In this document: piece by piece, positions 3,082 through 28,960 of the stretch
Position numbering within the stretch: the stretch's first letter is position 1
How the letters are laid out: every line of letters starts with the position of its first letter
The notes under the pieces: model-generated
The model's database searches: none
Seen by the model: the letters and a program-made list of their open reading frames with translations, nothing else
What the model was told of the DNA's origin: nothing
Translations under genes and position numbers: made by a program
Virus record (IMG/VR): IMGVR_UViG_3300033143_001488
Location: 1 to 37,041 of that record
Source of the DNA: a virus
Length of the DNA stretch: 37,041 bases
Reading direction: 5' to 3' (one strand)

Positions 3082-3357
3082 TTATTTCTTCTGTTTAGTA
3101 CGAGTGTTAGTTTTTTTATCTATAATAAATTTATCGCCGTTTGCTTTTGTAATACTTATATCACCGCTTTTATTATTCACAATAAATTTATCACCTATAT
3201 CGGTATTTATATTAATATCATTGGTTTTTTTATCTACAGAAACACTTACATTTGAATAGTTTTCAATTTCATTATTAGTTATATCTAATGATAAAGATAA
3301 TTCTAAAGATGTAGCTACTCTTTTTGTTTCACTCAGAAGAATTTTCTTTGACATCAT
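3082..3357 (-). CDS. Small basic protein with internal repeats, unknown
   Basis: This 91-aa lysine-rich protein has no cysteine or tryptophan. Its second half repeats the unit GDKFIVNNKSGDIS / GDKFIIDKKTN (about residues 56-85), alternating strand-forming and charged residues. It starts with tandem ATG codons (3357 and 3354) and overlaps the C-terminal coding end of the receiver-domain gene by about 29 nt. I do not recognise it. The repeats suggest a short beta-solenoid or fibrous segment, which would suit an accessory virion protein, but no function is claimed. Confidence 0.65.
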   Translation of the reverse strand: MMSKKILLSETKRVATSLELSLSLDITNNEIENYSNVSVSVDKKTNDININTDIGDKFIVNNKSGDISITKANGDKFIIDKKTNTRTKQKK

Positions 3358-3826
3358 CTATTCTTCTTCTTCTTCGATTTACCCTACGTTCTTCAATTCT
3401 GTATGGTGTTTGGTAAAAACAGTTATTATTATTAGCACATAATATTAATCGTCTAAATGCAGCAGGAAAGTCTTCTTCTATCGGTTTACGATATACTAAT
3501 CCATGCTGCCATAATATATTATTAATTTTAGGATCTTCTATACTTGTTACAAATAATATAGGTATATTTGGATATTTTTCATGTATATCTCGTGCTATAC
3601 TAATACCACTAGCATCAGGTAATACAGAATCTAATATAATAGCTTCTATATTTTGTCCTTCACGATTTATTTCATATAGAGCAGCTACACTAGTATTCGC
3701 TACAATATATTCTACGTTTTCACGTTCTATAATAGCTTCCATATAATGTAATACTTCATGGTCTTCCTCAATAACGAGTATTGAACCATTTAGTTTACAT
3801 GGTGATAGTGTACCATTACATTCCAT
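3329..3826 (-). CDS. CheY-like receiver-domain protein
   Basis: Residues about 14-128 form a response-regulator receiver domain with all key positions. The acidic pocket is E20-E21-D22 (ILVIEED), the phosphoacceptor is D66 (AIILDSVLPDASG), the conserved Thr is T94 (ILFVTS), and the Lys-Pro is K114-P115 (VYRKPI). After the domain comes a short arginine-rich tail (RRVNRRRRR, about residues 148-156) and no DNA-binding or enzymatic output domain. The family accepts phosphoryl groups from histidine kinases. In this phage the gene lies among late minor virion or accessory genes. It could interfere with or tap a host two-component pathway, or act as a structural fold. The complete active site argues for retained phosphorylation; the partner is unknown. 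Confidence 0.85.
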   Translation of the reverse strand: MECNGTLSPCKLNGSILVIEEDHEVLHYMEAIIERENVEYIVANTSVAALYEINREGQNIEAIILDSVLPDASGISIARDIHEKYPNIPILFVTSIEDPKINNILWQHGLVYRKPIEEDFPAAFRRLILCANNNNCFYQTPYRIEERRVNRRRRRIDDVKENSSE

Positions 3827-3829
3827 TGG

Positions 3830-4153
3830 TTATTGACCTTTATCCTGCTTTTTATCTAATTTAGACTCAATCGAATCGAGTTTAAGAAACAAAGCATCAG
3901 AAAGACGTTGTAAGTCTTCCTTCATAACATAATATGTTGGTAAATTGACATTTAACGTATTTATTTCTTTAGACAAAATTTTGTCCTGTTTAGTAAGATT
4001 ATCTAATTGACTAAATAATCTATTAACCACGAATCCACCTGTGAACGCTATTATTGCTACTGCTATATTAAATAGTGTTTGGAAGGATACTACAGCATTC
4101 TGTGGATTTAGATTTTGTACTGCGTGATTTATAATTTCTGCTTCCACTATCAA
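3830..4153 (-). CDS. Single-helix membrane protein with coiled coil; lysis candidate
   Basis: The 107-aa protein has one hydrophobic helix (about residues 27-46, TLFNIAVAIIAFTGGFVVNR). A charged helical region rich in heptad Leu/Ile and Lys/Glu/Asp runs from about 48 to 103. The N-terminus is short and acidic, suggesting an N-out/C-in or tail-anchored helix. Phage proteins of this size and plan include holin-like and spanin-like proteins and small tail-associated membrane proteins. No lysozyme is visible nearby, so the lysis assignment is only a candidate. A late-type GATAAATA octamer lies upstream at 4184-4191. Confidence 0.7.
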   Translation of the reverse strand: MIVEAEIINHAVQNLNPQNAVVSFQTLFNIAVAIIAFTGGFVVNRLFSQLDNLTKQDKILSKEINTLNVNLPTYYVMKEDLQRLSDALFLKLDSIESKLDKKQDKGQ

Positions 4154-4183
4154 CCCTTTATTTTTAAATTTTATTGTTATTAT

Positions 4184-4191
4184 TATTTATC
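4184..4191 (-). promoter_or_regulatory. Late-type promoter GATAAATA
   Basis: The minus-strand octamer is one base from TATAAATA. It lies 30 nt upstream of the ATG at 4153, in the short gap between two late genes. Confidence 0.5.
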
Positions 4192-4207
4192 AAAAAGGTA
4201 ATATAAT

Positions 4208-4576
4208 TTATTCTACCAACAACCATTCCAAATCAAATAATATTGTTGGTTTAATTGATATATTACTTTGTTCTAATTGAGATATATTAATCTGATAATC
4301 TTCAATATTTTCTAGTACTTCTTCATTATGTAATTCGTTTACCTTTTCATTAAACTGTTCTACATTTTCAGGTAGTACTTGATATACACCTGAACCATCA
4401 TCTAATTCTTTACCTAAAGATGTATATAAATCATTTACTTTTTTCTGATATAAAGCTTTAATCTCATCATATTCTTTCAATACCTTTTTAATTTTTATAC
4501 TTGTAGATATTGAAAGTTCTTTATTTGATAATTCTAATAATGCTTCCCCACTGTTAATAACTTTTTCTAGCTTCAT
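4208..4576 (-). CDS. Conserved-type small helical phage protein (122 aa), unknown
   Basis: This mostly helical, glutamate/lysine-rich protein is organised as MKLEKVINSGEALLELSNKEL, then a long helix (KIKKVLKEYDEIKALYQKKVNDLY). A GDGSGVYQV-like turn follows, then another helix with NEKVNELHNEEVLENI, and the protein ends ISIKPTILFDLEWLL. The layout resembles a small helical family found in several phage tail and lysis regions (DUF1617-like), a resemblance I cannot verify. No catalytic residues are apparent. It is preceded by an AATAAATA late-like octamer (4590-4597). Confidence 0.65.
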   Translation of the reverse strand: MKLEKVINSGEALLELSNKELSISTSIKIKKVLKEYDEIKALYQKKVNDLYTSLGKELDDGSGVYQVLPENVEQFNEKVNELHNEEVLENIEDYQINISQLEQSNISIKPTILFDLEWLLVE

Positions 4577-4589
4577 AATATATACCTTA

Positions 4590-4597
4590 TATTTATT
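4590..4597 (-). promoter_or_regulatory. Possible late-type promoter AATAAATA
   Basis: The minus-strand octamer is one base off the late consensus and lies 13 nt upstream of the ATG at 4576, overlapping the end of the preceding gene. In AT-rich DNA it could be coincidence. Confidence 0.35.
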
Positions 4598-4898
4598 TAA
4601 TTAATTTTACTTTAATTGAATCCTTTCCGAGTGGATAGAATATTTTACCTTTTCTAGCTTTGTAGAATACTTTTAATAATTCATCAGTTTCTATAGGTTT
4701 TTCAGGTAAATCTAACAATTTAGTGTGTTCTTTCTCATTATCAAGTTTTTCGTTTTTCTTGACAATACCTTTATTTATGCTTACAATACGCTCATATTCT
4801 GATAAAATACTTGCATAGTTATGGTCTAAAGTACGTATTAACCAGTCTTCGCTAGTATTACTCCATACTTTACCATTCGATGATCTTTGAATTTTCAT
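4593..4898 (-). CDS. Hypothetical protein (101 aa)
   Basis: This basic, lysine-rich protein has a short aromatic N-terminus (KVWSNTSEDWLIRTLDHNYA), a central charged helix and a C-terminal strand. I see no family signature, signal peptide or membrane helix. It is the first gene of this minus-strand late block; a CATAAATA late-type octamer at 4937-4944 lies 38 nt upstream of the ATG. Beyond it is the divergent plus-strand sigma-70 island. Confidence 0.65.
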   Translation of the reverse strand: MKIQRSSNGKVWSNTSEDWLIRTLDHNYASILSEYERIVSINKGIVKKNEKLDNEKEHTKLLDLPEKPIETDELLKVFYKARKGKIFYPLGKDSIKVKLIK

Positions 4899-4936
4899 AT
4901 TATTTCTCTTTTATTAACTATTCATTACAATATATC

Positions 4937-4944
4937 TATTTATG
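4937..4944 (-). promoter_or_regulatory. Late-type promoter CATAAATA
   Basis: Minus-strand CATAAATAG. It matches the late octamer except for the first base and faces the gene starting at 4898. It is the only promoter-like sequence on this strand between that gene and the plus-strand island. Confidence 0.5.
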
Positions 4945-4997
4945 CACGTTTTAATGGCAATAAATAACATTATTATCCAAATTTAGTGAAATAATGC

Positions 4998-5026
4998 TTG
5001 ACACGCATATTTACCTATTATATAAT
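4998..5026 (+). promoter_or_regulatory. Consensus sigma-70 promoter (P1)
   Basis: TTGACA at 4998-5003 and TATAAT at 5021-5026 are separated by exactly 17 bp, a 12/12 match to the consensus. Transcription would start near 5033 and cross the 19-codon ORF and the secreted-protein gene. Confidence 0.85.
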
Positions 5027-5054
5027 AGAATCTGAATTGAGAGAAGAACTTATT

Positions 5055-5114
5055 ATGAGTCTATTACTTAATATATCTTATCTTATTATTTATCACAAAC
5101 TAATTGACATATAA
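5055..5114 (+). CDS. 19-codon leader ORF
   Basis: ATG at 5055 is preceded at 8 nt by a GAGAAG SD and followed by 18 sense codons (MSLLLNISYLIIYHKLIDI) and TAA. It begins about 20 nt after the expected start of transcript P1, and its last codons overlap the -35 box of P2. The product is a hydrophobic mini-peptide. It could be a translated leader affecting the downstream secreted protein, a small membrane peptide, or a decayed gene start. Only the ORF, the SD and its placement are seen. Confidence 0.4.
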   Translation: MSLLLNISYLIIYHKLIDI

Positions 5115-5132
5115 TTATATTTGTGATATACT
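5104..5132 (+). promoter_or_regulatory. Sigma-70 promoter with extended -10 (P2)
   Basis: TTGACA at 5104-5109, a 17-bp spacer and TATACT at 5127-5132, with TGA directly before the -10 (extended -10). The expected start near 5139 gives a leader of about 36 nt to the ATG at 5175. Confidence 0.85.
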
Positions 5133-5174
5133 ATTATTATCAATATAATTAAATATTAACTTAGGAGTAATATT

Positions 5175-5624
5175 ATGAAAAAAATTATCTTAACAACAGT
5201 TTTATCGTTAGCTGTAGCTTTTCCAGCTTTTGCGGAATTTAACAACCGCCTAGAAGGTAAAGTATTAACAAGCTATGGTTATAAACAAACAACTACATAT
5301 ACTGGTGATGCTACTGTAGCAATCGACGCAAATACATCTGATAATGTACGAGTTGCTGGTTCAACCATCAATATTAGTTATAGTATTGTTCGTAGTAATA
5401 ATGTGAAATCACGTACACCATATAACCAACGAGGTATTTTGGACACTCGCATTAAAATTGCAATCGAAGAAGCTATTGATAGTACATTTGCAAAATATGA
5501 TATTAACTATATCAAGAAAAATACACAAGATGTATTTGAAGAAGTGATGGATACTGCACAAGGTAATGCTGACTTCGCTAATCCTGGATTACGGATTAAT
5601 CTTACAAAACTATCTTTTAGATAG
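5175..5624 (+). CDS. Secreted (signal-peptide) protein, moron-like
   Basis: The 149-aa product starts with a classical Sec signal peptide: MKK, a hydrophobic core ILTTVLSLAVAF and a PAFA cleavage site, giving an expected cut after residue 20. The mature part of about 129 residues is Thr/Ala/Asn rich with no cysteine, so disulfides are not involved. I recognise no family. An AGGAG SD lies at 5163-5167. Two consensus sigma-70 promoters drive it, opposite in direction to the flanking late genes, and its 3' end overlaps the APS-kinase-like gene by 8 bp. This is the arrangement of a moron: an independently expressed gene for host alteration, such as periplasmic superinfection exclusion. That role is inference. 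Confidence 0.85.
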   Translation: MKKIILTTVLSLAVAFPAFAEFNNRLEGKVLTSYGYKQTTTYTGDATVAIDANTSDNVRVAGSTINISYSIVRSNNVKSRTPYNQRGILDTRIKIAIEEAIDSTFAKYDINYIKKNTQDVFEEVMDTAQGNADFANPGLRINLTKLSFR

Positions 5625-6033
5625 AAAAATCGGTAGCCAAGGACGGCTTAATACCAATTAATACATTTGATTTTCTATTATATACAAAATCAAATGTATT
5701 AATTGGTATTTCATATGGATAATCAACATGTTCTACTCCACCAGGAATATAAACAAAAATACAATTAGTAATTTCTTTTACTTTTTCTCTAAGAGATTCA
5801 TAAGGACATATTAAAGAAACTATAACAATCTTACCTTGTTTTGACAAATTTAATGCAAGTCTAGCAACTCTAAGATTATGTTCTTCCCTATCTTCTTTAC
5901 TTAATCCCAAATCAATTGATATTGATTCCCTCATTTCATCACCATCAAGTATTATCACATCATAATAAGAAGCGATAATATTTGCTAATGTGGTTTTACC
6001 TGAGCCTGAATTACCTGTTAACCAGATAATCAT
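5617..6033 (-). CDS. cysC-like: Compact adenylylsulfate (APS) kinase-like enzyme
   Basis: APS kinase phosphorylates adenylylsulfate at the 3'-OH with ATP to give PAPS, the sulfate donor of sulfotransferases. The 138-aa protein has the P-loop GNSGSGKT (residues 7-14), the LDGDEMR motif (29-35), the DREEHNLR motif (48-55, the dRxxNxxR signature) and VSLICPYESLR (72-82), all in family order. A YEIP segment near residue 106 matches the family's late PYExP. The lid region usually present before it (RDxKGLYKKA type) is absent, and the C-terminus is shortened. A perfect 25-bp inverted repeat lies in this 3' part. Its start shares a base with the methyltransferase-like stop (TAATG). Substrate could differ from APS, since other small P-loop kinases share these motifs. 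Confidence 0.8.
   Translation of the reverse strand: MIIWLTGNSGSGKTTLANIIASYYDVIILDGDEMRESISIDLGLSKEDREEHNLRVARLALNLSKQGKIVIVSLICPYESLREKVKEITNCIFVYIPGGVEHVDYPYEIPINTFDFVYNRKSNVLIGIKPSLATDFSI
5650..5710. repeat. Perfect 25-bp inverted repeat with 11-nt loop
   Basis: Bases 5650-5674 are the exact reverse complement of 5686-5710, and 5675-5685 form the loop. The structure lies inside the 3' coding part of the APS-kinase-like gene and 26 nt beyond the end of the convergent secreted-protein gene. No U-run follows on the plus strand, so it is not a standard terminator, though it could still block or stabilise both convergent transcripts. Confidence 0.95.
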
Positions 6034-6545
6034 TATAACATCTCACCTGTTGATAGGTTATATGTTGTATGAGTTTGTACACTTATTGAAATTCTTTCCC
6101 ATAATATCATGTAAGAGTTCTCTATCTCACTATCAATTAGATTATGTATAACTTCTTTAGCTAATTCTAATTGTTCACCTGTTTCGTCCATAAATAAATG
6201 GTACGTGTATATTGTGTTATTTTGTGGATCTTCTTTCACAACTTCTCTATAATCACCATTGATAAGTTTATATGTATCTAATGTTGCTTTTGCATCAGGG
6301 TCTATTTCAATAGAAGTGATGCTCATATCACTAGGAAGTTTTTCATATAGGTATTCATTTACACCATAATCAATTAGATTATTAGCTCCAGTATCCTCAC
6401 TCAATTGAGCAATTGCATCAGCTCTTTTTTGTACATCATTACCTTTACCGATATGTCCAGTAAGACCATCACCTTTATCTAGTGCTCTATAGCTTTTCCA
6501 AGAATCTCTACTCCACGGCTTTCTATAACCAAAATCTTTTTTCAT
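6033..6545 (-). CDS. Methyltransferase-like (Rossmann-type) protein, degenerate motif I
   Basis: This 170-aa protein has a pattern of class I SAM-dependent methyltransferases around residues 54-105. ANNLIDYGVNEYLYEKLP sits where motif I would be, SITSIEIDPDA matches the post-I acidic strand, and KLINGDYREVV matches motif II/III spacing. The glycines of the usual GxGxG are mostly missing, so cofactor binding is uncertain. The C-terminus is helical, then strand (YMILWERISISV). It may be a divergent methyltransferase or a related Rossmann domain. Position between sulfotransferase and APS-kinase-like genes, with a 4-nt overlap upstream (ATGA) and TAATG downstream, makes it part of the same module. 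Confidence 0.6.
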   Translation of the reverse strand: MKKDFGYRKPWSRDSWKSYRALDKGDGLTGHIGKGNDVQKRADAIAQLSEDTGANNLIDYGVNEYLYEKLPSDMSITSIEIDPDAKATLDTYKLINGDYREVVKEDPQNNTIYTYHLFMDETGEQLELAKEVIHNLIDSEIENSYMILWERISISVQTHTTYNLSTGEML

Positions 6546-7240
6546 GTTATTATTTTCTCATATCCAAATAAATCGAATAGTTTATCATCAGCTTTAATAA
6601 TTTTTTCAAGATCTTCTTTAGAAGCATTTTGTGAGGGATAACTAACATTATCTCTACTAAATTCTGTTACACCTAATTCTGGTAGTTTAAGCATCTCTAT
6701 AACAATATCTTTTTGATCTTCAATTCTGTATGTTGTTGATCCAAGAACTCCAATACCTTTGATTAATAGTTCATATAAAGAGCCATTAAACTTAATATCA
6801 CTGAGTTTTGTAAGATCGCCTATAATTGCTTTCCACCAATCGTATGTTCTATGACTTAACATTATATCTCTAAGAATTTCAAGTTTTTCTGGATTATTCT
6901 TAAAAAATCTAGGTAGATTAGTTGCTCTATCTATAAAAGTGTGAATATCAACAGTTACACCGTTCTCTAATAATAGAACTGCATTAAGTGGTGTGTTATA
7001 ATACGACATTTCCTTGTGTTTTTTACAACTCCATGTGTACCAAGATATGTACCATGTAAGCGGGTTTCTTACTAATGAAACAACTGGAAAGTGTTTGAAC
7101 TCATCTGGTAGAGTATTTAATGAATTGTGTGTGCTAACATACTGTATGTCATACTTTCTATATTTCTCTACGGTATTACCCATAGATGTGCCTGCACATT
7201 TATGTAAATGTAGAAAAATTGTATCATCTATTATTAACAT
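6542..7240 (-). CDS. Sulfotransferase family protein
   Basis: The 232-aa protein has the two PAPS-binding signatures. A P-loop-like 5'-phosphosulfate motif at residues 9-20 (FLHLHKCAGTSM) matches the H-x-K-x-A-G-T-S type of glycan sulfotransferases. A 3'-phosphate motif at 52-68 (PVVSLVRNPLTWYISWY) carries the conserved Arg58 and Ser66. The C-terminal half is helical. Such enzymes move sulfate from PAPS to hydroxyls or amines of carbohydrates, lipids or peptides. Length is near that of the compact sulfotransferases. It is the third gene of the five-gene cassette. The gap to the upstream gene is 10 nt, and it overlaps the next by 4. With an APS-kinase-like gene in the same operon, a phage-made PAPS supply is plausible. 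The acceptor is unknown. Confidence 0.85.
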   Translation of the reverse strand: MLIIDDTIFLHLHKCAGTSMGNTVEKYRKYDIQYVSTHNSLNTLPDEFKHFPVVSLVRNPLTWYISWYTWSCKKHKEMSYYNTPLNAVLLLENGVTVDIHTFIDRATNLPRFFKNNPEKLEILRDIMLSHRTYDWWKAIIGDLTKLSDIKFNGSLYELLIKGIGVLGSTTYRIEDQKDIVIEMLKLPELGVTEFSRDNVSYPSQNASKEDLEKIIKADDKLFDLFGYEKIIT

Positions 7241-7250
7241 TCAAATTCAT

Positions 7251-8000
7251 CTATAGAACCGTGATACCATTTTCTTCTATTATTGAATTGATATCTTGAT
7301 ATCTCTTTTCTAATGCTTCATTATATTGTTTCATAGTTTCTTTAAAAAGTTTTGAGCTATGTTTATCTTCTCTTCCCTGTCTAGGAACTTTAGAAATAAT
7401 TTCTTTTAAGTCAGAGTCATGTTGCAACCCAAGATGTTCAAATATTTTTCCTGTGTCATTTAAGATCGTATCTTTAGTGAGAATAACTAAATTCAACTTA
7501 CCTTCATTATGTAATTCCACAATTCTTTCAAAGTCATGCATCATTAGAATATTATCAACATTTTGGTGTAACTTTATACCATCATTCTCTAGTTTATTAA
7601 CTCCATAATAATGAGCAACACAATTAACCATCGCATCATTTATATCTTCTGAAGGTGTGAATTTACTTAAAGATTCTCTGTGTGTTATAGAATATATTCT
7701 TTCTTCATATGGTACAAGTGGAAACAATACTGTATATTTAATACCTTTCATTTGAGTGTTAAATGTTTCTATCGGTGATGGTACAAACTCTTCATTTACT
7801 GAAAGAAATGGCGCAACATAATATAGTTTACTATCATCATAGTGTTTATGTATATTTTTAATTTCGCTTAATCCATATTGGTTAGGCTTTTTAATTCTCC
7901 CTAAAAGAAAGTCAGAATAATGCTCATCTAATATTGGTTTAAAAATTGCAGATAATATTTTTGTATAAGATGCAATCGTATTATATTTTAATACTATCAA
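7251..8000 (-). CDS. Unknown cassette protein, possibly sulfotransferase-like C-terminus
   Basis: This 249-aa soluble protein starts at a TTG (8000) whose last bases overlap the radical SAM stop (TTGA), with an AAGGAAAG SD just upstream. I cannot assign a family. The C-terminal third (KLNLVILTKDTILNDTGKIFEHLGLQHDSDLKEII, about residues 168-202) reads like the typical sulfotransferase ending 'vlryEdL..dp...l..i..fLgl..d..l'. No clear PAPS 5' motif is visible in the N-terminal part. Histidine and tyrosine are frequent. It may be a divergent second sulfotransferase or a partner protein. It is translationally coupled to the radical SAM gene and precedes the recognised sulfotransferase. Confidence 0.7.
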   Translation of the reverse strand: MIVLKYNTIASYTKILSAIFKPILDEHYSDFLLGRIKKPNQYGLSEIKNIHKHYDDSKLYYVAPFLSVNEEFVPSPIETFNTQMKGIKYTVLFPLVPYEERIYSITHRESLSKFTPSEDINDAMVNCVAHYYGVNKLENDGIKLHQNVDNILMMHDFERIVELHNEGKLNLVILTKDTILNDTGKIFEHLGLQHDSDLKEIISKVPRQGREDKHSSKLFKETMKQYNEALEKRYQDINSIIEENGITVL

Positions 8001-9064
8001 TTACTTTCCTTTATCTGACTATATTGTGATTTCAATATTTCATATCCGTAAATTGATGATAGTAATTTATCTGGTGTTTGTACATACCCACCATTCTCAG
8101 TTATTGTAATTGTGTTTTTTATTTCTTGTTCTAATTTACCATTTCCCCAGAAATTTGAATCATCAAGAATATCTATATTTCCACATTCTATATATTCCCG
8201 TTTACCATTTCCCCAGAAATTATGTTCTAGTTTACTTTTTTTAATTTTAACTTCAAACTTATCACTAAGTTTATCAATTGCCATGTTAGATACCTTAATA
8301 TCTATATCATTGTTGAATGGAAATAACCCCCAGCCAACTAGTGCTGCTGAACCAATTAAAAGATAATCATCGCTTACATCTAAATCTATAAGTTCCTGAT
8401 AATGTTGGATTCTTTTTATATCAAATGATAATTCATGGTTTATGAAAGGAGGATACCATATTTTTGGATATGGGTAGTTTGGTTTATTACATATATGTTC
8501 ATCTTGTATAGTTTCACCAACTTTATATCCTACATGTTTATATTCATCACACATATGCCATGTTCCATTAGGTGATACATGCACTCCATGAGTTTTGTGT
8601 GGACAACCATCAAAACCAACTTTAGCTCTACCACCTTTCACTATTAAATTTTTAGGTGTATATCTAATTCCATATTTTCTAATGAAAAGATCTTTTCTAG
8701 GTTCAGTAAATAAATATTTAGTTCTCTCTTCTATTGGGTCATGATACTCATCTAAAGAGAGAACTACTGTAAGAATATAGGACTCACTATACTTGATAAG
8801 CTTAGAAGTAATATCATAATCGCTACCATTAGTTGTTATATGTGCTCTTGGAAACCCTTTTGCAAAGATTAAATCTATAATATCAAAAAGGTTTCTATGT
8901 AAAGTTGGTTCGCCGCCTCCAATAAATATTGTTTCATTTTTATCAGCAAACTCTAGATTATGTTCTACATCTTCTAGAGTCATGAAGTCTTTATTTCTTT
9001 TATGTGAGTTAGCTATACAGAAACTACATGCAAAATTACATTTATTTGTTATTTCTAGATACAA
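7997..9064 (-). CDS. Radical SAM protein fused to a nucleotidyltransferase domain
   Basis: Residues 1-200 form a radical SAM enzyme. The Fe4S4 triad is C9, C13 and C16 (CNFACSFC), the glycine-rich strand is FIGGGEPT (47-54), TTNGS is at 77-81, and a SPASM-like tail has C154, C172 and C192 around HVSPNGTWHMCDE. Residues 233-355 form a pol-beta-type nucleotidyltransferase: G238-S239 (LLIGSAALVGWG), D253-x-D255 (NNDIDI) and a third acid, D298 (GNIDIL), so the catalytic triad is complete. A 21-bp direct repeat in this part encodes NFWGNGK twice. The start is TTG at 9064, directly after the adhesin stop (TAATTG), with GGAG as SD. I know of no standard function for this fusion; peptide or glycan modification is inferred. 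Confidence 0.85.
   Translation of the reverse strand: MYLEITNKCNFACSFCIANSHKRNKDFMTLEDVEHNLEFADKNETIFIGGGEPTLHRNLFDIIDLIFAKGFPRAHITTNGSDYDITSKLIKYSESYILTVVLSLDEYHDPIEERTKYLFTEPRKDLFIRKYGIRYTPKNLIVKGGRAKVGFDGCPHKTHGVHVSPNGTWHMCDEYKHVGYKVGETIQDEHICNKPNYPYPKIWYPPFINHELSFDIKRIQHYQELIDLDVSDDYLLIGSAALVGWGLFPFNNDIDIKVSNMAIDKLSDKFEVKIKKSKLEHNFWGNGKREYIECGNIDILDDSNFWGNGKLEQEIKNTITITENGGYVQTPDKLLSSIYGYEILKSQYSQIKESN
8135..8221. repeat. Two 21-bp direct repeats inside the nucleotidyltransferase domain
   Basis: Bases 8135-8155 and 8201-8221 are identical and in the same reading frame. They encode the peptide NFWGNGK at residues 282-288 and 304-310, on both sides of the third catalytic aspartate strand. 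This could be a recent segmental duplication or a conserved beta-hairpin pair. Confidence 0.85.
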
Positions 9065-9958
9065 TTAAGTTCTCCAATAAATTCTAGCTGCGCCACTTTT
9101 TCCTGCTCCACCATAGTAACCAGAAATAACTTTCCCACAACCTCCTCCTCCAGCACCAATATTGATTGCAGCACTTCCGCTACTATCCGTTCCACCAGCA
9201 CCACCAATACCATAAGGGGATGAACCAGAACCACCACCACCACCAGAACCACCTGCATCACCAACATTAACCCCTTTTGCAGACACTTCTGGAACGTTCC
9301 AAGACTCGTCTAAGATATTATCCACCGCACCTGTGCCATATGTTGAAATCAAATTAGTTGTAAATTCTCCACCATCTCCACCATCTCCACCACCATTCAC
9401 ACCAGTACCACCATAACCAGTATTGGTGTTATCTCCATGTGAACCATAACCACCACCTAATGATGATATAGTTTTTACAGTGGTTGTGCCACCGCTATTT
9501 CCATCGGTTGCCTGAGTGGGGCCGCCACTACTACCACCAGTACCACCCGTCCCAACTGTTACTGTTACATTCTCGGCTGGAGTTACTACTACAGTTCCAA
9601 CTACAAATCCTGAAGCTCCACCACCGCCACCGCCTATACCATAGAATTGGCTGTAAGCATCACCATCAGTAACGCTACCACCACCACCACCACCACCACC
9701 ACAAGCAGCAACTAATATTTCAGTTACACCTGCCGGAACTACAAATGTTCCTGATGAATCGAATTGTTGTACGTTATTCCAGTATGAAATTTCTGTTGGA
9801 CTAACGTTAGATAATCCATAGAAATCAGATAGAGATAGAATACCACTAGCAGGAGCACCGCCAGCACCATAAAATTCACTCATACTATGTGGAGCAGTAT
9901 CTTCAAATTCTGTCGCTACATCTCCTATAGAAATTATTCCTGAAGCTGGCAAAGTCAT
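9065..9958 (-). CDS. Glycine-rich tail-tip adhesin (receptor-binding protein)
   Basis: The 297-aa protein starts with two copies of an attachment motif, PASGIISIGDVATEFEDT...SMSEFYG and PASGILSLSDFYG (residues 4-48). It then has an FDSSGTFVVPAGVTEILVAA strand segment, and from about residue 88 long polyglycine runs interspersed with short variable loops. Closely packed GGG/GGGG runs are the hallmark of T4-type gp38-like adhesins, in which polyglycine-II helices present receptor-binding loops. The C-terminus (GKSGAARIYWRT) is typical of the Gly-rich tail domain. The gene directly precedes the modification cassette, coupled through TAATTG, and its own start shares a base with the fibre stop (TAATG). 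Confidence 0.85.
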   Translation of the reverse strand: MTLPASGIISIGDVATEFEDTAPHSMSEFYGAGGAPASGILSLSDFYGLSNVSPTEISYWNNVQQFDSSGTFVVPAGVTEILVAACGGGGGGGGSVTDGDAYSQFYGIGGGGGGASGFVVGTVVVTPAENVTVTVGTGGTGGSSGGPTQATDGNSGGTTTVKTISSLGGGYGSHGDNTNTGYGGTGVNGGGDGGDGGEFTTNLISTYGTGAVDNILDESWNVPEVSAKGVNVGDAGGSGGGGGSGSSPYGIGGAGGTDSSGSAAINIGAGGGGCGKVISGYYGGAGKSGAARIYWRT

Positions 9959-17746: not shown

Positions 17747-18538
17747 TTATATTTTCTCTTTTATTTTTTTAACTTTGTAATTCTTATATTTATCAACTTT
17801 TCCAGTGGATAGTTGACACATAGAAGGATAGTTTAATTTATTTTCTTTACAGTATTCTTTTAAATTGTTAATCTCTTCTACATTACCATCTGGTTTTGTG
17901 ATGATATATGATTTAATACCATTCTTCTGTCCTTTACGAGATTCACTAAGTTTTTTCTTAGCTGAATCAGACATAGGTACACCTTTATTCCAAGCTTTCT
18001 GTCCTTTATTAGATTCACTTATTTTCTTTCGTGTTTCTTTAGAACGTTGTTTACCCCAGTTAGGATGTTTATCACCTGATCTTAATCCCATTAGAGACTC
18101 ACTGTATCTTTGTTTAGCTTCTTCACTCCACTTCCAACCTTTATTATTGGATCTGTCTGTACCATACATAGGATTATTTTTACCAGAAACTTTTTTACTT
18201 ATACGCTTCTTTGTTTCTTCTGTATGAAATACAACTCCATCTGTACCACCTTCATCCATGTTATAACCACTATTGAAAGTGTTATATTCTACTACAAAGT
18301 GTTTCTCCATAGCTTTTAAATAATCATTATCTTCTTCTAATAAATTATATAATACATCAAATTTAAAATTATCAATACCATATTTTCTTATCGCTCTTTG
18401 TATCGCGCCATGAGGTATTCTAACAGTACTCTTTATTTTATAATCATACCATCTCTTTTGTACACCTCTACGAGTAAGTCCAACGTATTGCTTTTCGTTA
18501 ATCGTGTTGGTTATAATGTATATTTGATATTTAGACAT
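17747..18538 (-). CDS. GIY-YIG homing endonuclease with NUMOD3 repeats
   Basis: The nuclease core is YQIYIITNTINEKQYVGLTRR (residues 4-24), followed by a conserved Arg region (GVQKRWYDYK) and YGIDNFKFDVL. The tail holds several NUMOD3-type DNA-binding units (NNPMYG, SEEAKQRYSESLMG, GDKHPNWGKQRSKETRKKISESNKG, SAKKKLSESRKG). A last small helix-turn-helix-like stretch of NUMOD1 type follows (NLKEYCKENKLNYPSMCQLSTGK). Length and plan equal T4 Seg and I-TevI-like enzymes. It is inserted between the gp8-like wedge gene and the giant structural gene, abutting the latter with no spacing, and carries its own late promoter at 18561-18568. It is a selfish mobile element. Confidence 0.92.
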   Translation of the reverse strand: MSKYQIYIITNTINEKQYVGLTRRGVQKRWYDYKIKSTVRIPHGAIQRAIRKYGIDNFKFDVLYNLLEEDNDYLKAMEKHFVVEYNTFNSGYNMDEGGTDGVVFHTEETKKRISKKVSGKNNPMYGTDRSNNKGWKWSEEAKQRYSESLMGLRSGDKHPNWGKQRSKETRKKISESNKGQKAWNKGVPMSDSAKKKLSESRKGQKNGIKSYIITKPDGNVEEINNLKEYCKENKLNYPSMCQLSTGKVDKYKNYKVKKIKEKI

Positions 18539-28247: not shown

Positions 28248-28276
28248 TCAACACTATTATCTTGCAGGATAACAAC

Positions 28277-28960
28277 ATGACTACATCTATTTATCACTAC
28301 GTATATCGTATCACAAATACCCTTATCGGTAAACATTATTATGGTACTAGAAAATCTATAGGAAAAACTCCTAAAGAAGATCTTGGTATTAGATATTACT
28401 CTTCATCCTCTAATAAAAAATTCATATCAGAACAGAAAGCATATCCAGACCACTTTAAATATAAAGTAATTCGTACATTCTCCACTCGTGAATCTGCTGT
28501 AGAATTTGAAATATTTCTACATAACAAATACGATGTTAAGAATCATACTAAATTCTATAATGTATCCAATCAAGTGTCAACTGGATTCGACACTAGCGGT
28601 TTTGTTACTGTAAAGGATAAATCAGGAAATACCTTCAATACTCCAATGAGTGACCCTAGATACATATCTGGTGAATTAGTTCATATCAATACAGGGAGAT
28701 TAGCTAAGAGAGGTTCAGGATCAGGCTGCAATAGGGGAACATTCTTATATAACAATAAACAATATGATATATTAAAAGATTTAGCAGATGATATTAATTG
28801 TCCTATGGCATCAGTACATAGGTATTGCTGTACAGAGAATGATAGAGTAATAACACTACCTTCTTATTGCCGTTCCTCATTCCTGCAAACTCTTGGTAAT
28901 AGTGTAGACATCATAGGTAAATCATTCAAAGAGCTTGGATTTGGATTTATAGCAAGATAG
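28277..28960 (+). CDS. GIY-YIG homing endonuclease
   Basis: A 227-aa protein starting MTTSIYHYVYRITNTLIGKHYYGTRKS, whose YHYVYRITN/HYYGTRKS pair is the GIY-YIG core, followed by R-x-Y (LGIRYYSSS) and a Glu around SAVEFE. The recognition part has DKSGN...DPRYISGELVHINTGR, a HTH-like IKD/YDILKDLADDINCPMASVHRYC and a C-terminal SFLQTLG...ELGFGF. The same modules occur in the endonuclease at 588-1520, so the two are paralogues. The start is ATG at 28277, with AGGA at 28266. An upstream TTG at 28262 is less likely. It is free-standing next to gp4, which is intact, so no intron is needed. Confidence 0.9.
   Translation: MTTSIYHYVYRITNTLIGKHYYGTRKSIGKTPKEDLGIRYYSSSSNKKFISEQKAYPDHFKYKVIRTFSTRESAVEFEIFLHNKYDVKNHTKFYNVSNQVSTGFDTSGFVTVKDKSGNTFNTPMSDPRYISGELVHINTGRLAKRGSGSGCNRGTFLYNNKQYDILKDLADDINCPMASVHRYCCTENDRVITLPSYCRSSFLQTLGNSVDIIGKSFKELGFGFIAR

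Follow-up and report, generated by a model that had tools for sequence, protein, structure and literature searches.

Organization of the locus

The window, by which is meant the whole stretch of viral DNA analysed here, is a 37,041-base IMG/VR virus record. Its minus strand carries, at positions 7997 to 9064, an uninterrupted frame of 355 amino acids that encodes a radical SAM–nucleotidyltransferase-like fusion protein; a plus-strand reading of the same interval meets stop codons throughout and was rejected. The frame begins with a TTG at 9064 that abuts the TAA ending the glycine-rich gene upstream. A ribosome site, GGAG, stands 7 nt before this TTG, and the frame's own TGA overlaps the TTG from which the following gene starts. 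A preliminary description of this DNA had placed a single 355-aa chain at these coordinates and in a modification cassette. Coordinates and single chain are both correct, the strand being minus, and the neighbours bear out the cassette; these point to PAPS-dependent sulfation, which that description did not name.

Just upstream of the fusion lies a glycine-rich tail adhesin gene (9065–9958, minus strand; PF21722, E 4e-14). Downstream on the same strand is a 249-aa protein (7251–8000) whose start overlaps the fusion's stop codon and for which profile searches gave no family match; its motifs had raised the suspicion of a divergent sulfotransferase, an idea discarded when profile comparison returned a probability of 0.1%. 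There follow a sulfotransferase (6542–7240, minus) with a 5′-phosphosulfate loop (HKCAGTS) and the stretch VRNPLTWYISWY, which scores just above the cut-off of PF00685 (Sulfotransfer_1; 23.3 bits against 22), a 170-aa protein (6033–6545, minus) with no family match that is possibly Rossmann/methyltransferase-like, and a short APS (adenylylsulfate) kinase homologue (5617–6033, minus). The kinase homologue clears PF01583 (APS_kinase) with 88 bits against a cut-off of 21.1, falls short of the TIGR00455 equivalog (87.9 bits against 138.7) and is missing much of the lid region. Start and stop overlaps among the cassette genes indicate one coupled operon. A terminator-like hairpin within the last codons of the kinase gene (5635–5648, minus strand) is plausibly where transcription of the cassette ends. 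In the tightly packed cassette of the window no small open reading frame resembling a RiPP precursor was recognised, which makes a RiPP cluster a disfavoured reading.

The surroundings hold several further features. On the plus strand, in the direction opposite to the cassette, positions 4998 to 5624 hold the gene of a 149-aa protein whose N-terminus resembles a signal peptide and which has no family match. Ahead of it stand a sequence that fits the TTGACA-17-TATAAT promoter perfectly (4998–5026) and two more strong promoter matches, and the gene looks like a moron. A response-regulator receiver domain protein (3329–3826, minus strand; PF00072, E 5e-12) sits among the phage tail-region genes, and GIY-YIG (SegE-like) endonuclease genes or fragments at 588–1520, 17747–18538 and 28262–28960, recognised by weak Pfam matches and in one case by sight only, suggest the presence of several homing endonucleases.

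Recurrence of the fusion

A frame that joins two domains could in principle come from a sequencing or assembly error that ran two genes together, and the radical-SAM half does have many other relatives in viruses that are stand-alone proteins of 200–250 aa. This explanation is practically out of the question: a viral scan that collected radical-SAM relatives recovered a full-length homologue, 53% identical over residues 1–350, in an independent contig (IMGVR_UViG_3300033388_005273, hereafter L009) with no frame break, and this refutes an artefactual join. The domain pair is thus present in a second viral contig, and the union of a radical-SAM enzyme and a nucleotidyltransferase-like domain in one phage gene, the central claim of the preliminary description, is confirmed.

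Further scans seeded with other parts of the fusion and with a neighbour gene returned L009 as the only contig with a full-length relative. Two pattern-seeded scans of 84,980 prokaryote genomes, which reach fairly close relatives only, held no full-length relative, and named phages and plasmids gave radical-SAM matches without a full-length relative. Given the limits that pattern seeding sets on sensitivity, the two known examples are a lower bound. A literature search, in those portions of the sources that it reached, found no paper describing a radical-SAM/nucleotidyltransferase fusion.

The radical-SAM half

The core (8717–9055, minus) carries the C9xxxC13xxC16 motif together with GGGEPT, TNG and LSLDEYHDPI, and PF04055 (Radical_SAM) matches residues 4–116 well above its gathering cut-off (Pfam E 8.9e-17, 62.2 bits against 29.5; E 4.6e-19 for the place at 8717–9055), as had been expected from the CxxxCxxC motif. 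Against the core, a large number of NCBIfam radical-SAM equivalogs give weak matches that all stay below their own cut-offs, and it therefore cannot be assigned a specific function.

Behind the core lies an auxiliary-cluster region of the SPASM/twitch-like sort (residues 132–206; 8447–8671, minus) delimited by alignments and segment identities. Its cysteines C154, C172 and C192 stand in a P-x-G context within about 90 residues after the core. This is the best-conserved stretch between the two fusions (75% identity), and all six cluster cysteines are kept in the L009 homologue while non-cluster cysteines are not. The SPASM-like Cys tail proposed earlier therefore holds as to the placement and conservation of the cysteines, but not as to formal family membership: Pfam finds no SPASM domain (PF13186) in the window protein, and the homologue scores 13.6 bits against a cut-off of 21.5. 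What is present is a related but altered Cys region.

The nucleotidyltransferase-like half

The C-terminal half (residues about 218–355; 7997–8413, minus) is harder to place. Its motif (GSAALVGWG..NNDIDIKVS; GSAALVGWGLFPFNNDIDIKVS) resembles that of minimal nucleotidyltransferases (NTases), and G238-S239 and D253-x-D255 have the spacing expected of the Pol beta-like superfamily and are conserved in L009, as is the whole NNDIDIKVS segment. D298, the third Asp by position, is present in the window protein and is a His in L009; D302 is conserved in L009 and is a possible substitute for D298. In identity to L009 this is the least conserved part of the fusion (33%, compared with 61% for the radical-SAM core).

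When the C-terminal half was searched by sequence, nothing in Pfam, PHROGs, the PDB or named phages matched it significantly. With a degenerate pattern of the motif, phage proteins of stand-alone type were retrieved, and two of these have weak matches to the Pfam NTase families DUF6036 and DUF2204. Another tail-linked NTase is seen at L099 (3–7771), where a stand-alone NTase-like gene (146 aa) lies directly 3′ of the gene for a phage tail protein of 2442 aa that contains Fn3-like repeats.

Structure prediction for the whole fusion from a single sequence reached a pLDDT of 37. An AF2 model of the C-terminal domain, built from a five-sequence alignment, is likewise of low confidence (pLDDT 46.7, pTM 0.41); its matches in the PDB are mostly NTases, led by TM1012 (Foldseek prob 0.96) and including ANT(2'')-Ia, MenT1 and tRNA/polyA nucleotidyltransferases. 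For the same low-confidence model the best match in VIA was ANT(2'')-Ia with a Z of 5.2, below 8, and matches in a viral structure library point to NTases too. The best PDB profile match of the five-sequence alignment was again TM1012 (E 0.2), and as that alignment contains motif-selected proteins the sequence and fold lines are not fully independent. Taken together, these weak but convergent signs suggest an NTase fold.

The preliminary description had called this domain a complete nucleotidyltransferase. Its NTase-like character stands, with GS, D253, D255 and D298 all in place and with fold matches of the low-confidence model that are mostly NTases. The word complete does not: the third carboxylate is not conserved, no curated NTase model matches the C-terminal domain, and the structure model is weak. 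With a His in place of D298 in the homologue, the label of a complete, active nucleotidyltransferase is not yet justified.

A cassette shared by two phages

When every reading frame of 60 aa or more in the window was compared with those of L009, the strong matches were confined to five adjacent cassette genes. Besides the fusion (53%), these are the 249-aa protein, whose counterpart of 260 aa occupies the same place in L009 (47%), the 170/160-aa protein (57%), the sulfotransferase (46% to one L009 copy and 35% to a second) and the APS-kinase homologue (37% over 86 aa). Four of the five genes keep the same order, with the kinase at the opposite end in L009. Each phage has a glycine-rich tail adhesin gene just upstream of its cassette. 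That of L009 belongs to the same gene type (Gly_rich_2 tail protein; PF21722, E 2.7e-13), and the two adhesins are modestly similar (44% over 100 aa).

The phages themselves are otherwise of unrelated types. The window phage has T4-like baseplate genes; L009 has genes resembling those for portal, protease, capsid, tape measure and tail assembly, by roles assigned on inspection, and no match to gp6. Since only the five cassette genes are strongly shared between two such different phages, the cassette most likely moved between phages as a unit, to judge from the sequences compared.

The kinase of L009 has an architecture of its own: at 3963–4984 an APS-kinase-like domain is fused to an adenylyltransferase-type domain with HxGH and SGTxIR motifs, possibly a mini PAPS synthetase or a sugar-activating enzyme, and a 66-aa DUF2061 membrane protein, rather than a RiPP precursor, is encoded after it.

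Proposed role in sulfation

The APS kinase and sulfotransferase families imply PAPS-dependent sulfation, and the fusion among them is thus most simply an acceptor-tailoring enzyme. We propose, at about even confidence, that phages carry a mobile cassette for PAPS-dependent sulfation next to the genes of their tail adhesins and that the fusion serves in it as a tailoring enzyme of two domains. The APS-kinase homologue would convert host APS to PAPS; the radical-SAM half, with its putative second iron-sulfur cluster, would alter a group on the acceptor by hydrogen abstraction; the nucleotidyltransferase-like half would bind, and perhaps nucleotidylate, the same acceptor; and the sulfotransferase would then sulfate it. 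The acceptor would most likely be a molecule that governs adsorption, either a host-surface glycan or its precursor or the tail adhesin itself. The fullest version of this scheme, in which a single polypeptide carries out radical chemistry as well as nucleotidyl transfer, its acceptor is later sulfated and either the tail adhesin or the host receptor is thereby remodelled, all within a unit that moves between unrelated phages, is quite unlikely to hold in all its parts.

The sulfation-cassette reading is favoured by the recurrence of the fusion, the five shared genes, the operon overlaps and the family scores above cut-off, and also by the conserved cluster cysteines, the adhesin upstream in both phages and the NTase fold retrieved in structure searches with the model. 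Weighing against it are the kinase of the window, below the equivalog cut-off and without lid residues, a sulfotransferase barely above its own cut-off, and the small number of examples (n = 2). Unrelated cargo genes commonly land in the neighbourhood of tail fibres, so that location alone says little about the target.

How much catalysis should be credited to the C-terminal half is a separate matter. The replacement of D298 by His in the only homologue means that nucleotidyl transfer may not occur, and the domain may instead keep the NTase fold as a module that docks or binds substrate on behalf of the radical-SAM half. The low conservation of this half fits such a module, as does L103, a distant single-domain relative that is also without an obvious third Asp, but conservation of G238-S239, D253, D255 and the entire NNDIDIKVS segment speaks for a working site, and D302 could act in the place of D298; we regard the module as a serious possibility, at somewhat less than even weight.

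Two other roles would take the cassette away from sulfation of an adsorption-related acceptor. The PADLOC prokaryotic viperin profile matches residues 3–110 (E 1.1e-17) and the cassette includes a P-loop kinase, from which one might envision an enzyme that is viperin-like or serves counter-defence by acting on nucleotides: a modified nucleotide would be the product of the radical-SAM half, and the small kinase and the NTase domain would likewise act on nucleotides. That match covers only the generic core, however (103 of 257 profile positions, 4–106), and identity as a viperin is rejected by the NCBIfam equivalog, where the protein scores 47 bits against a cut-off of 180; the extra Cys cluster region of the fusion also argues against such a role, which leaves the sulfotransferases unexplained and is very improbable. 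Somewhat better placed, though still unlikely, is auxiliary metabolism, in which the cassette of the infecting phage would divert sulfate or make a small sulfated metabolite for the host cell, and neither the virion nor the cell surface would be involved. The APS kinase homologue speaks for this role, and cysC-like genes have been reported, without validation, as auxiliary genes of aquatic viruses (PMC12713726), yet the cassette contains no sulfate-reduction enzymes, its sulfotransferases and fusion point to the tailoring of a product, and it lies among tail genes in both phages.

The two halves of the fusion, like those cassette enzymes that can be recognised, come from known families; with respect to the sources searched, it is the fusion architecture and its mobile sulfation context that are new. 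What role sulfotransferases play in phages has been stated to be unclear (PMC10580990). The partners of the fusion tie the radical-SAM/nucleotidyltransferase architecture to PAPS-dependent sulfation, and a five-gene unit common to two unrelated phages provides a delimited group of proteins for asking which molecules phages sulfate and for what purpose.

Relation to known systems

The closest relatives of the radical-SAM half are stand-alone phage proteins of 200–250 aa, a widespread family (L010–L037 in IMG/VR; Vibrio phages V-YDF132, PG28 and KarBoss, with L003 and L004 among the Vibrio phage loci) about 25–35% identical to the fusion over residues 1–172. They share the radical-SAM core, the LSxDxxHDPI helix, GRA and a Cys-rich P-x-G auxiliary region, which in these viral relatives contains C-x-C pairs, whereas the fusion has a single Cys plus a His. 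Unlike the fusion they have no C-terminal nucleotidyltransferase, and none was found nearby by profile in the loci examined. Their neighbours differ as well, no listed neighbour family being common to two; a polyamine aminopropyltransferase gene adjoins the radical-SAM gene in two Vibrio phages.

For the C-terminal domain the best match, both by Foldseek and by PDB profile, is the putative nucleotidyltransferase TM1012 of Thermotoga maritima (PDB 2fcl, 2ewr, 4hx0), which together with the DUF6036-type NTases of Pfam has the GS...DIDI motif in common with the fusion. TM1012 differs in being stand-alone, and its sequence match (E 0.2) is below significance; DUF6036 weakly matches the stand-alone phage relatives of the domain but not the fusion. 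The small-molecule nucleotidyltransferases ANT(2'')-Ia and LnuA and the MenT1 toxin are minimal-NTase-fold matches of the model (Z 4.0–5.2), but they show no sequence-level match, are without a radical-SAM domain and stand apart in the third Asp, which is not kept in the fusion's homologue. The cassette as a whole resembles pairs of PAPS synthesis and sulfotransferase genes (cysC/Sulfotransfer_1), in that APS-kinase and sulfotransferase families likewise occur in one operon. It differs from them in that its kinase is short and below the equivalog cut-off, that it is carried by phages, and that it adds a fused radical-SAM enzyme and two further proteins for which no family match was found.
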